Source: Flavobacteriales bacterium (GTDB lineage Bacteria; Bacteroidota; Bacteroidia; Flavobacteriales_F; PHOS-HE28). From it: 64,000 nt of DNA. Shown piece by piece: positions 15,085 through 63,339 of the stretch; position 1 is the stretch's first letter; each line of letters opens with the position of its first letter. The DNA is taken from NCBI GenBank assembly GCA_023957375.1, contig JAMLHB010000001.1:1776245-1840244 (forward strand). Direction: 5' to 3'. Below the pieces are notes generated by a model, which was given only the letters and a program-made list of their open reading frames with translations, had not been told where the DNA came from and ran no database searches. The position numbers were made by a program, and so were the translations under genes.

Positions 15085-16160
15085 GCAGGCGCGGTGGCCC
15101 CGCGAAATGGGATATCCGTTTCGCGAGGGCCTGTGCACCCAACAGGCCCGAAGCGATCTTGTTCTGCTCCTGCGGGCGGAAGCGAGGAAGTATGCGGGGG
15201 CTTCGCCGAGGAGATCGCTTCGCGGCCAAATGCGCCGCTCGCGAAATGGGATGGTGGGGCGGCCCGCAAAATGAGATGCCGTTTCGCGAGGGCCTGTGCA
15301 CCAAACAGGTCCCGAAGCGATCTTGTCTTGCTCCTGCGGGCGGAAGCGAAGAAGTACGCGGGAGCTTCGCCGATGAGATCGCTTCGCGGCCAAATGCGCC
15401 GCTCGCGAAAGGGTATGTCCGTTTCGCGAGGGCCTGTGCACCCAACAGGCCCGAAGCGATCTTGTTTTGCTCCTGCGGGCGGAAGCGAAGAAGTACGCGG
15501 GAGCTTCGCCGATGAGATCGCTTCGCGGCCAAATGCGCCGCTCGCGAAAGGGTATGTCCGTTTCGCGAGGGCCTGTGCACCAAACAGGTCCCGAAGCGAT
15601 CTTGTCTTGCTCCTGCGGGCGGAAGCGAAGAAGTACGCGGGAGCTTCGCCGATGAGATCGCTTCGCGGCCAAATGCGACGTCCCTCGAAATGAGATGCCG
15701 TTTCGCGAGGGCCTGTGCACCCAACAGGCCCGAAGCAATCTTGTTCTGCTCCTGCGGACGGAAGAGGGGAAGTACGCGGGGCTTCGCCGATGAGATCGCT
15801 TCGCGGCCAAATGCGCCGCTCGCGAAATGGGATGGTGGGGCGGCCCGCGAAATGGGATACCCGTTTCGCGAGGGCTTGTGCACCCAACAAGCCCGAAGCG
15901 ATCTTGCTTTCACTCCTGCGGGCGGAAGCGAAGAAGTACGCGGGGCTTCGCTGAGGAGATCGCTTCGCGGCCAAATGCGCCGCTCGCGAAAGGGGATGGT
16001 GGGAGATCGCAAAATGAGATGCCGTTTCGCGAGGGCTTGTGCACCCAACAAGCCCGAAGCGATCTTGTTTTGCTCCTGCGGGCGGCAGCGAGGAAGTACG
16101 CGGGGCTTCGCCGAGGAGATCGCTTCGCGGCCAAATGCGCCGCTCGCGAAAGGGGATGGT
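15085..16160. repeat. Seven tandem copies of a structured ~130-bp repeat (family R2)
   Basis: Units begin with GTTTCGCGAG at 15118, 15281, 15421, 15560, 15700, 15863 and 16024 and end with CTCGCGAAA; they are joined by variable spacers of ~10-35 bp. Each unit can fold as an outer stem (TTTCGCGAG/CTCGCGAAA), an inner hairpin (GGGCCTGT-GCACCCA-ACAGGCCC) and a second long stem (GAAGCGATCT/AGATCGCTTC) around a GC-rich core. Copies 6 and 7 carry GGGCTTGT/ACAAGCCC, a paired C:G to T:A change that keeps the hairpin. All six frames through the array are incidental open frames. Related copies recur at 61.9-63.2 kb. Confidence 0.92.
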
Positions 16161-16164
16161 GGTT

Positions 16165-16204
16165 GGTTCGCGCAGGGTTCACTGAGTGTGACCCTGCGCG
16201 AACC
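16165..16204. repeat. 40-bp palindromic element, copy 1
   Basis: A 14-bp perfect inverted repeat (GGTTCGCGCAGGGT and its complement) with a 12-nt loop. It follows directly after the R2 array. Two relatives lie at 21432-21471 and 62076-62115. Confidence 0.85.
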
Positions 16205-16571
16205 AAGATTCCCCGAGCGAAGCGATTCCTGCACACGCCCGTGGCATCGCACCCCCATTCCCTGATCGAACTCCTATCCAGCTCATTTCCACCGCATGCC
16301 ATGCTCATTAGCTCAGCCAGTCGATCCAGATCCGGATTTGATACAGACCACTGAACAGTTCGGCAAACGCGTAACATTCCTTGCATTTGTCGGAACTTTC
16401 ACTACGTTGCGAGCCCAAACCCTGACTACGCCGATCCCCCTGAGCGAACCCCGACTACCCCACCAACGAGGCGCCTAACGCCTTCCCTTCTTCTATCCGA
16501 CTGGCGCAAGCCATACCAACGTACCCGGGCACGGACGCCCGTTAGGAAAACTCACACTTACCCAAACACCC
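16205..16571. other. Upstream region of the GEVED protein gene
   Basis: 367 bp with no credible gene. It presumably holds the promoter for the gene at 16572. The only candidate -7 box is TGCATTTG at 16382-16389, one base off TAnnTTTG and without a matching -33, so no promoter is called. A 7-bp inverted pair CCTAACG/CGTTAGG spans roughly 16475-16550. Confidence 0.4.
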
Positions 16572-26628: not shown

Positions 26629-28497
26629 ATGCAGCGCTTGAAAAAACTGTCCACCCTGCTTCTGGCCATCGCACTGCCGTCGCTGTTGGCAGCCCAGGAG
26701 ATCTGCAACAACGGCATCGATGATGACAACGACGGGTTGATCGACCTGAACGACCCGGATTGCCCATGCAGCACCTTGATCGCCCCGGAGAACCTGCCCA
26801 GCTACATCCGCAACCACTCCTTCGAGGAAAGGTTGTGTTGCCCGTATAGTTTTGTTTCCATCATCTCTCCGCCCTGGCTGGATTGCGCCACCGGCTGGCA
26901 CCAGGCGACCAACGCCACGTCGGACTACTTCAACATGTGCGGCTACGCCCCGGTGGGATTCAATCTTCCACCACCTGACGGGGATGGCGCGGTGGGCTTC
27001 TTTGCCTTCCCGGGCTACTTCGAATACGTGGGCACCTGCCTGACCTATCCGGCGCCGGCCAATCCCTTGCTGGCGGGCACCACCTATACCCTTTCCCTGT
27101 GGATCTCCACGGCCATCGTCAACGACTACCATACACAAACCCGTGCGCAAGGCGAATACACCGCGCCGTTCACCGACGCGCTTCCGCTGGCCATCTTCGG
27201 CTATGCCAATGCCTGCGTACCCTTCCCCATCAGCACCATCGACTGCATCGGCTACCTGCCCGGCTGGAGCGAATTGGGCCGGGTGGAGGTGCAGCCGGCC
27301 TGGGACTGGACGCGCGTATCCATCACCTTCACGCCCACCCAGGACATCCACTCGATCCTGATCGGCGGTGCATGCGACACCCCGGCCTCCATGGGCGGGG
27401 GCACGGTCACCAATCCCAACACCGGTGAAACCTACTTGGGCACACCCTACTTCGTGGTGGATGACCTGCTGCTGACCATCGCACAGGACCAGGTGCTACA
27501 GCCGGTGGCCACCTCCGGAAGCCTTTGCGCCGCAGATGCCTTGGCTGTTGGCACGCCGCCGCCCGGGGCTCACAACTACCAGTGGTACGTAGACGGCGTG
27601 GCCATCCCCGGCCAAACCGGGCAGAACCTGAACATCTCGGCTAACAACTTCGGGGGTGGTGTGTACGCCATGGCGAGCACCTTCAATGGACAGTGCCTGA
27701 TGGGCAGTGCCTATTTGCCACCACCGCTATTGCCGGTGCCCTTCCCGTCCATCGAGCCTGCGGAAGGCTGCGCACCGCTCACGGTGCAATTCGCGGACAC
27801 TGCGGGAGCAGGCATCCTGCCGCTGCTTTGGGAACTGGGCAATGGCATTTCCAGCACCGACTCGGCCTTCTCCCACATCTACACGCAACCCGGCACGTAC
27901 GATGTGGCACTGACGGTGCGCAACAGTGCCGGGTGCACTGCGGACACGTTGATGGTGGACGCCATCATCGTACATCCTGGGATCAGTGGCAGCATCACGG
28001 CCTCGCCCAACCCCGTGAACGCGGATGACCCGCAGGTGACGCTTTCGGGGTCCGGCTCGGGCAACATCGCCTCCTGGTGGTGGGACCTGGGCGACGTGCC
28101 GCCGCACACCTCATCAAGCCAAGCATTGGACCTCACCTTCCCCAGTGATACGGGCGACTACCCCGTGATGCTGGTGGTGACCTCGGCCAACGGCTGCACC
28201 GATACCGTGCGCTCGGTGGTCACCGTGATCAAGCCCGGGATCATCGAAATGCCCAACGTGTTCAGCCCCAACAGCGACGGCTACAACGACAACTTCACCC
28301 CATTGGACATCCAGCACCAGTACGTCACCGGCATGTTGCAGATCTTCAACCGCTGGGGTCAGGCGATCTTCACCACCCGCAACCTCACCCAAGGGTGGAA
28401 CGGCAAGGATGCACCGGACGGCACCTATTTTTATGTGGTCACACCTGACCAGCCGGGAACCGAAAAACTCTCCGGCTACGTCACCTTGGTAAGATGA
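26629..28497 (+). CDS. Adhesin cassette 1, gene A: secreted PKD protein with CHU_C terminus
   Basis: 622 residues from the ATG at 26629, which is followed directly by a signal peptide (MQRLKKLSTLLLAIALPSLL-AAQ); the frame's upstream 40 codons look non-coding. It opens with the acidic CNNGIDDDNDGLIDLNDPDC motif. A Cys-rich domain (~45-300, NHSFEERLCCPYSFV), an Ig-like segment (~310-385, NYQWYVDGVAIPGQTGQ), two PKD domains (~385-540) and a CHU_C domain (~545-622; PNVFSPNSDGYNDNF, FNRWGQAIF) follow. The end marks T9SS export. The stop overlaps the start of gene B (ATGA at 28494-28497). It is strongly similar to the gene at 31805-33664, and related in design to the genes at 1-1438 and 1623-4229. 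No ligand can be assigned. Confidence 0.9.
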   Translation: MQRLKKLSTLLLAIALPSLLAAQEICNNGIDDDNDGLIDLNDPDCPCSTLIAPENLPSYIRNHSFEERLCCPYSFVSIISPPWLDCATGWHQATNATSDYFNMCGYAPVGFNLPPPDGDGAVGFFAFPGYFEYVGTCLTYPAPANPLLAGTTYTLSLWISTAIVNDYHTQTRAQGEYTAPFTDALPLAIFGYANACVPFPISTIDCIGYLPGWSELGRVEVQPAWDWTRVSITFTPTQDIHSILIGGACDTPASMGGGTVTNPNTGETYLGTPYFVVDDLLLTIAQDQVLQPVATSGSLCAADALAVGTPPPGAHNYQWYVDGVAIPGQTGQNLNISANNFGGGVYAMASTFNGQCLMGSAYLPPPLLPVPFPSIEPAEGCAPLTVQFADTAGAGILPLLWELGNGISSTDSAFSHIYTQPGTYDVALTVRNSAGCTADTLMVDAIIVHPGISGSITASPNPVNADDPQVTLSGSGSGNIASWWWDLGDVPPHTSSSQALDLTFPSDTGDYPVMLVVTSANGCTDTVRSVVTVIKPGIIEMPNVFSPNSDGYNDNFTPLDIQHQYVTGMLQIFNRWGQAIFTTRNLTQGWNGKDAPDGTYFYVVTPDQPGTEKLSGYVTLVR

Positions 28498-61533: not shown

Positions 61534-61809
61534 GCGACGGCCACGCAATGACGGGTTGGGTAAAACCCCACCACGTCGTCACTGCGAGGAGGCTTTGCGA
61601 CGAAGCAGTCCAGGCAAGGGGCGCCCTGATGGATTGCTTCGCCCGAGGCGGCCTCGCAATGACGGGTTGGATAAAACCCACCACGTCGTCACTGCGAGCC
61701 GGCTTTGCGGCGCGGCAGTCCAGGCACGATCGCCCTGATGGATTGCTTCGGCCGCGACGGCCTCGCAATGACGGGTTGGATAAAACCCACCACGTCGTCA
61801 CTGCGAGGA
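61534..61809. repeat. 109-bp tandem repeat array (family R1), first block
   Basis: One partial and three full junctions of a unit containing CCACGTCGTCACTGCGAG, GCAGTCCAGGCA, CCTGATGGATTGCTTCG and CCTCGCAATGACGGGTTGG. Starts are at 61571, 61681 and 61790. The sequence resembles the dispersed CGTCATTGCGAGG-type repeats known from many bacterial genomes. No gene; open frames here are incidental. Confidence 0.9.
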
Positions 61810-62050
61810 GGCTTTGCGACCCCGGCCTTGCGCCGGGGAGCAGTCCATGGCGAGGGTGTCCTGATGGATCGCTTCCCGGCACAAGGCCGGGACCCGAGGC
61901 GGCCCGTGAAAGGGGGTGTCCATTTCGCGAGGGGCTGTGCACCCAACAGGCCCGAAGCGATCTCGTCCTGCTCCTGCGGGCGGAAGCGAGGAAGTACGCA
62001 GGGGCTTCGCCGAGGAGATTGCTTCGCGGCCAAATGCGCCGCTCGCGAAA
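61809..62050. repeat. Composite repeat: R1 variant fused to a full R2 structured unit
   Basis: The R1 variant starts AGGCTTTGCGACCCCGGCC and has its own palindrome (CCCCGGCC..GGCCGGG type). It runs into an R2 unit at 61923-62050 (TTTCGCGAG to CTCGCGAAA), which has the same stems as the units at 15.1-16.2 kb. Here the second stem contains GAGATTGCTTC, a G-T wobble that keeps pairing. Confidence 0.88.
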
Positions 62051-62075: not shown

Positions 62076-62115
62076 GGTTCGCGCAGGGTCCACTTCGTGT
62101 GACCCTGCGCGAACC
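62076..62115. repeat. 40-bp palindromic element, copy 3
   Basis: 15-bp perfect arms (GGTTCGCGCAGGGTC and complement), 10-nt loop CACTTCGTGT. It lies between an R2 unit and the second R1 block. Confidence 0.88.
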
Positions 62116-62582
62116 CCAAAACCCCACCACGTCGTCACTGCGAGGAGGCTTTGCGACGAAGCAGTCCAGGCAAGGGGCGCCCTGATGGATTGCTTCGCCC
62201 GAGGCGGCCTCGCAATGACGGGTTGGATAAAACCCACCACGTCGTCACTGCGAGCCGGCTTTGCGGCGCGGCAGTCCAGGCACGATCGCCCTGATGGATT
62301 GCTTCGGCCGCGACGGCCTCGCAATGACGGGTTGGATAAAACCCACCACGTCGTCACTGCGAGCCGGCTTTGCGGCGCGGCAGTCCAGGCACGATCGCCC
62401 TGATGGATTGCTTCGGCCGCGACGGCCTCGCAATGACGGGTTGGATAAAACCCACCACGTCGTCACTGCGAGCCGGCTTTGCGGCGCGGCAGTCCAGGCA
62501 CGATCGCCCTGATGGATTGCTTCGGCCGCGACGGCCTCGCAATGACGGGTTGGATAAAACCCACCACGTCGTCACTGCGAGG
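62116..62582. repeat. 109-bp tandem repeat array (family R1), second block
   Basis: Five units start (CCACGTCGTC) at 62127, 62237, 62346, 62455 and 62564. The three units from 62237 to 62563 are essentially identical 109-mers, which points to very recent tandem amplification or slippage. Confidence 0.92.
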
Positions 62583-63237
62583 AGGCTTTGCGACCCCGGC
62601 CTTGCGCCGGGGAGCAGTCCATGGCGAGGGTGTCCTGATGGATTGCTTCCCGGCACAAGGCCGGGACCCGAGGCGGCCCGTGAAAGGGGGTGTCCATTTC
62701 GCGAGGGGCTGTGCACCCAACAGGCCCGAAGCGATCTCGTCCTGCTCCTGCGGGCGGAAGCGAGGAAGTACGCTGGGGCTTCGCCGAGGCTTTGCGACCC
62801 CGGCCTTGCGCCGGGGAGCAGTCCATGGCGAGGGTGTCCTGATGGATTGCTTCCCGGCACAAGGCCGGGACCCGAGGCGGCCCGTGAAAGGGGGTGTCCA
62901 TTTCGCGAGGGGCTGTGCACCCAACAGGCCCGAAGCGATCTCGTCCTGCTCCTGCGGGCGGAAGCGAGGAAGTACGCTGGGGGCTTCGCCGAGGAGATCG
63001 CTTCGCGGCCAAATGCGCCGCTCGCGAAATGGGGAAATGGTGAGATCGCTTCGGCCCAGAGCGGCCTCGCGAAATGGATGGCGGGGTGACCCGCGAAAGG
63101 GGGTGTCCATTTCGCGAGGGCCTGTGCGCCCAACAGGCCCGAAGCGATCTCGTCCTGCTCCTGCGGGCGGAAGCGAGGAAGTACGCAGGGGCTTCGCCGA
63201 GGAGATCGCTTCGCGGCCAAATGCGCCGCTCGCGAAA
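62583..63237. repeat. 204-bp tandem duplication and three R2 structured units
   Basis: A composite of R1 variant plus R2 start is duplicated in tandem (62583-62786 and 62787-62990; practically identical, one extra G in the second). R2 units start at 62697 (cut short by the duplication junction), 62901 (complete to 63029) and 63110 (complete to 63237). No gene. The stretch 63238-63339 holds a last R1 fragment (CCTCGCAATGACGGGTTG) and the 3' flank of the next gene. Confidence 0.9.
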
Positions 63238-63339
63238 TGGGGAATTGGTGAGATCGCTTCGGCCGAAACGGCCTCGCAATGACGGGTTGTTGCCACTGCC
63301 ACTGCGTCTCCGCCCCGGAACCCTGCGGCGTCTAAGCGC

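Follow-up and report, generated by a model that had tools for sequence, protein, structure and literature searches.

The R2 repeat of this Flavobacteriales genome is, with a probability of roughly two in three, a non-autonomous palindromic DNA repeat of the REP/BIME type that arose from CGTC-tagged REPs, is recognised as single-stranded hairpins, was spread in trans and was amplified locally. An earlier note on the window, by which we mean the whole analysed stretch of 64,000 nucleotides, had offered three readings of R2, namely a structured RNA, a REP-like element and a DNA cruciform target. Of these, the REP-like element is the best supported, R2 and the neighbouring repeat R1 being inverted dimers with the architecture of CGTC-tagged REPs. 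In the mechanism that we infer, the form recognised would be a single-stranded hairpin with its tag, stem base and internal loop, which replication or transcription would expose; some enzyme would have spread the copies in trans, and recombination or slippage would then have amplified them into tandem arrays. No insertion into a clean target site and no recent movement of the repeats was found. How CGTC-tagged REPs spread is a question posed by the authors who defined them, and the present set makes this question testable, since its covariation is clear, its dimers strictly combine unlike halves, and one complete genome holds hundreds of copies but no Y1 gene.

Seven R2 units at 15118-16160 and four at 61.9-63.2 kb, all on the + strand, have the nested fold that the earlier note described, and all of their 5' arms were found. 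In the first array, unit 1 (15118-15246) is full, with a 5' half-site, a structured spacer and an inverted 3' half-site, as is unit 3 (15420-15549), which served as the query. Units 2 (15281-15410) and 4 (15559-15682) carry a single bulged base in apical stem A (ACAGG-T-CCC), so this part of the note was correct. Unit 5 (15699-15827) has GCAAT for GCGAT in its core, and units 6 (15862-15991) and 7 (16023-16151) contain the reported change from C:G to T:A, in which both partners were replaced. The second array region comprises units at 61922-62050, 62696-62793, 62900-63029 and 63109-63237. The observation of a shared fold holds, with corrections for some copies: unit 4 has lost its 3' outer arm and its 3' end has decayed to ACGTCCCTCGAAA, and the unit at 62696 is truncated and continues into R1 sequence. 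In three copies near 62 kb, C has also changed to G with no matching change in its partner (GGGGCTGT), which breaks one pair. Across the genome, which comprises 3.83 Mb in 4 contigs, about 32 R2 copies are complete or almost so; they are grouped into about nine clusters, where they form tandem arrays and are nearly identical within a cluster. A third copy with the double change lies outside the window (C1:1760740), and the copy at C1:1760945 has a one-sided T:G intermediate of the same change. At another locus (L095, 12413-13982; G000:C1:1848413-1849982), R2 copies alternate at a spacing of 481 and 477 bp, which is roughly a 958-bp tandem duplication that includes R1 copies.

When both strands are read, each R2 unit resolves into two facing half-sites that form an inverted (head-to-head) dimer, each half laid out as tag - ATYGC - GA - apical hairpin - GAA - GCRAT. 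The first half-site is TTTCGC-GA-GGGCCTGT(GCACCCA)ACAGGCCC-GAA-GCGATCT and the second, on the opposite strand, is TTTCGC-GA-GCGGC(GCATTTG)GCCGC-GAA-GCGATCT. Each half, consisting of 4 bp, an internal loop and 8 bp closed by a 7-nt loop, folds alone; if they pair with each other, the two halves are predicted to give a structure with three arms that meet at a four-way junction. R1 (61.5-62.6 kb in the window, 81 matches in the whole genome) is built on the same plan with ATTGC/GCAAT in place of TCGC/GCGA, and in several of its types the apical stem is 5 bp long and closed by a 3-nt loop. On the + strand, R1 forms arrays at 61534-61820, where CGTC-tagged inverted dimers are found, and at 62119-62592, and a CGTC-tagged 3' half-site of R1 type lies at 63250-63284. 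The half-site pattern has 117 matches in this genome, and its reversed form has none. The tags among half-sites of this genome are CGTCATT (59) and CGTCACT (27) in R1, with the tails AATCCA (58) and AGTCCA (27), and CCATTTC (37), CCGTTTC (17) and CCCTTTC (9), that is C-N-TTTC, in R2, with the tails GATCTT or GATCTC. A third repeat, R3, is a 40-bp hairpin (GGTTCGCGCAGGGTYYACTNNGTGTGACCCTGCGCGAACC, no strand assigned) that borders the first R2 array at 16165-16204 and recurs at 62076-62115; all of its five genomic copies are inside R1/R2 clusters. Some R1 hairpins hold an extra nested hairpin (CCCCGGCCTTGCGCCGGGG; 62590-62660 and 62800-62880), as though a palindrome had been inserted into a palindrome. 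In relatives (L032, L039 and L055), the hairpin GGGCTTGT-GCAYYCA-ACAAGCCC also occurs beside elements that lack the conserved core, as if it could stand alone.

Di Nocera et al. (2013; PMC3733652) defined CGTC-tagged REPs by a CGTC tag, a stem starting with AT and a CCA tail, with no known transposase; they occur in Bacteroidetes as head-to-head dimers, often heterodimers, and include RPE-4 and RPE-6 of Rickettsia and dRS3 of Neisseria. R1 resembles them in its CGTC tag, CCA tail, head-to-head heterodimers, lack of an adjacent transposase and Bacteroidota host, and its stem starts mostly with AT (ATTGC), in some cases with ACTGC. R2 has the core and the dimer plan in common with them. In contrast, its tag is C-N-TTTC instead of CGTC-AT (a CGTC, TGTC or CCTC tag is not present), its stem starts with TTCGC and not AT, and its tail is TCT; furthermore, its hairpin has an internal GA/GAA loop and an 8-bp apical stem closed by a 7-nt loop, the halves are separated by a structured spacer of 62 nt, and the units stand in tandem arrays. 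The published elements seldom cluster except in Neisseria and Wolbachia; they have stems of 8-9 bp and loops of 4-5 nt (PMC3733652), sizes from which the R2 half and several R1 types depart. R2 is thus not filed as a member of the CGTC-tagged REPs, because its tag and tail differ and its hairpin is larger. Half-sites of relatives carry the tags CGTCTTC and CGTCATC, which suggest a bridge between R1 and R2 along which the C would have been lost by degrees in R2. To judge from these sequences, the likeliest assignment of R2 is a derived variant of CGTC-tagged REPs, probably a lineage-specific offshoot in mirror-image pairs. Searching the literature with strings of the core sequence returned only irrelevant primer matches. 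The GTAG REPs, BIMEs and REPINs with RAYT/TnpAREP of E. coli and Pseudomonas are also tagged hairpins in inverted pairs; unlike these, the present repeats have a different tag, flank no RAYT in the genus, and in their richest relative, G069, occur without any Y1 gene. Bacterial MITEs are likewise short and non-coding, with inverted ends and possible folding of the whole element, whereas for R2 a non-exhaustive search revealed neither a parent insertion sequence nor a target duplication.

The earlier note was right that the window contains no RAYT or other Y1 gene. Elsewhere in the genome, where it had proposed to look, there are nine Y1_Tnp matches, and for eight of them the 1.5 kb on either side contain no half-site. 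The same holds for all of 29 further Y1 loci in the genus (37 genus loci in total). Beyond the genus, none of 22 Y1 genes from five copy-rich genomes is bordered by a half-site, the nearest dimer being about 770 bp away. The repeats therefore border none of the 59 Y1 genes examined. The complete, single-contig Bacteroidota genome G069 (L257-L296) has 427 CGTC half-sites and no Y1_Tnp match. In an 800-kb sample of it, 102 half-sites were distributed over 25 of 40 stretches, 92 of them with CGTCAT, and the dimers mostly combine a short (GGAAC) and a long (GGAGGYACGAC) apical part. With so many half-sites and no Y1 match, a resident Y1 enzyme is not needed now, at least in G069, which speaks against the idea that a Y1 transposase of its own moves the repeats there at present. 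On E. coli REPs the enzyme depends on both a tag and a stem irregularity (PMC8266576). In the present repeats, the internal GA/GAA loop is constant and resembles that irregularity, and together with the CGTC tag it may parallel the requirement, a parallel rather than a proof.

The two halves of a dimer agree in the core and differ at the apex. Of the 74 different head-to-head dimers compared, 71 are uniform at all four core positions (C/G type in 36, T/A type in 35), and in none do both halves have the same apical class, so that the dimers are heterodimers like those of the CGTC-tagged REPs. For the 54 distinct combinations, about 14 same-class dimers were expected at random, and the minimum in 2000 shuffles was 5. 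A genome of another family shows a weaker preference, with identical apical parts in 3 of 30 dimers against 8.4 expected. Di Nocera et al. suggested that a difference between the halves protects dimers from the elimination that affects long palindromes (PMC3733652), and our data fit this suggestion. Both core types carry the same apical classes, with founder types recurring; the apical hairpins therefore look exchangeable, like swappable cassettes. One tentative extension, which we regard as rather unlikely, is that R2 is a modular palindrome whose single co-evolving core takes up different apical hairpins by exchange, whose halves are kept unlike and whose copies are spread by an enzyme other than Y1/RAYT. 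If true, it would point to the mover of CGTC-tagged REPs.

The fold of R2 is clearly maintained by selection. The 130-nt unit folds as RNA at -72.2 kcal/mol against -50.9 kcal/mol for shuffled sequences (z -4.9), and as DNA with z -3.7; in both cases no shuffle folded equally well. Within the genome, covariation was weak (three two-sided pairs; covariation term -0.6 of -34.1), because there is too little variation among the copies. The inclusion of relatives made the support for the idea that the fold matters, since pairing is kept while the sequence changes, much stronger, and the further covarying pairs that the earlier note had proposed to seek were found. In 45 distinct half-sites of the genus whose apical part is 23 nt long, counted without regard to shared descent, 97.4% of stem cells are standard pairs, compared with 25-41% in slid controls. 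Two-sided changes occur in 8 of the 12 stem pairs, and the observed score was reached by 0 of 500 shuffles. In the patterns by which the relatives were retrieved, GCGA, GAAGC and, for the most part, TGT/ACA are invariant, and only Y and R are allowed at the core pair. Five pairs (columns 7-11 with 25-29) lie outside these constraints, and each of them has two-sided changes, in 4, 3, 14, 5 and 11 cells.

The 15.1-kb array is flanked by two divergent genes, one for a bifunctional nuclease (PF02577) and one for a protein that has a GEVED domain and a type IX sorting tail. The array is absent upstream of all 29 genus orthologues of the nuclease gene (flanks of up to 1.5 kb, some shorter), where a single half-site-like match was seen at one locus (L221); the position of this array is accessory. 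Where genes were called on both sides of a cluster by a simple ORF caller, six pairs were convergent, nine co-directional and one divergent, a placement of the kind reported for REPs. It would also suit a structured RNA or an mRNA-end element, in which the fold of transcribed units stabilises or attenuates neighbouring transcripts and the pairing is kept for this reason. The strong RNA fold (z -4.9) is consistent with this explanation, and so is a slight excess of G-T over A-C mismatches (10 against 3 in 43 distinct apical stems), as expected if one strand folds. However, this excess is not significant (p about 0.09, a binomial estimate), and single-stranded DNA would give an equal bias. Neither an Rfam match nor a terminator was found in the array, and it has no sigma-70-like promoter, a model from which Bacteroidota promoters differ. 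Moreover, the orthologous loci lack the array, and the orientation of units relative to neighbouring genes varies. The stand-alone RNA of the earlier note is thus not supported, and a stand-alone regulatory RNA is less likely than a spreading DNA repeat; the RNA explanation as a whole appears distinctly unlikely. In the Rfam search no family reached the gathering score, and permissive E-values gave only chance-level matches to eukaryotic, viral and unrelated families. Intrinsic terminators were also rejected as an identity of the units, since no T-run follows them and the only terminator-like site is at 16468, outside the array.

The units could also be relics, without function today, of an old REP family that slippage has amplified; the paired changes would then reflect a few inherited founder types and whole-hairpin exchange, not repeated selection. 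Near-identical copies within clusters, swappable apical hairpins and recurring founder types would all be expected in that case. However, many different stems that are fully paired differ at single pairs, with wobble intermediates; whole-hairpin exchange alone is therefore insufficient, and we consider relics improbable. The cruciform target among the three original readings, taken as a double-stranded cruciform or protein-binding array, for example for a nucleoid protein, gyrase or a partition-like site, is in our estimate improbable. Its perfect and near-perfect palindromes in tandem arrays, the 40-bp R3 hairpin in the same clusters and the DNA fold (z -3.7) are in its favour, whereas presence varies widely, half-sites of the R2 apical type being found in only 9 of 45 genus genomes, and the consistently unlike apical hairpins lower the odds of a perfect long cruciform. 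An integron attC-like array was rejected, as no cassette genes lie between the units.

The core of these repeats extends beyond the genus: its pattern was found in 58 of 247 Bacteroidota genomes and 36 of 122 genera, and the reversed control in none. Matches to the longer apical type came almost only from metagenome genomes of Flavobacteriales/Bacteroidetes. Between the two array regions, the window contains a run of large genes (28494-61421), and those scanned, at 28494, 41212, 47117, 54781 and 58209, encode type IX secretion sorting domains.
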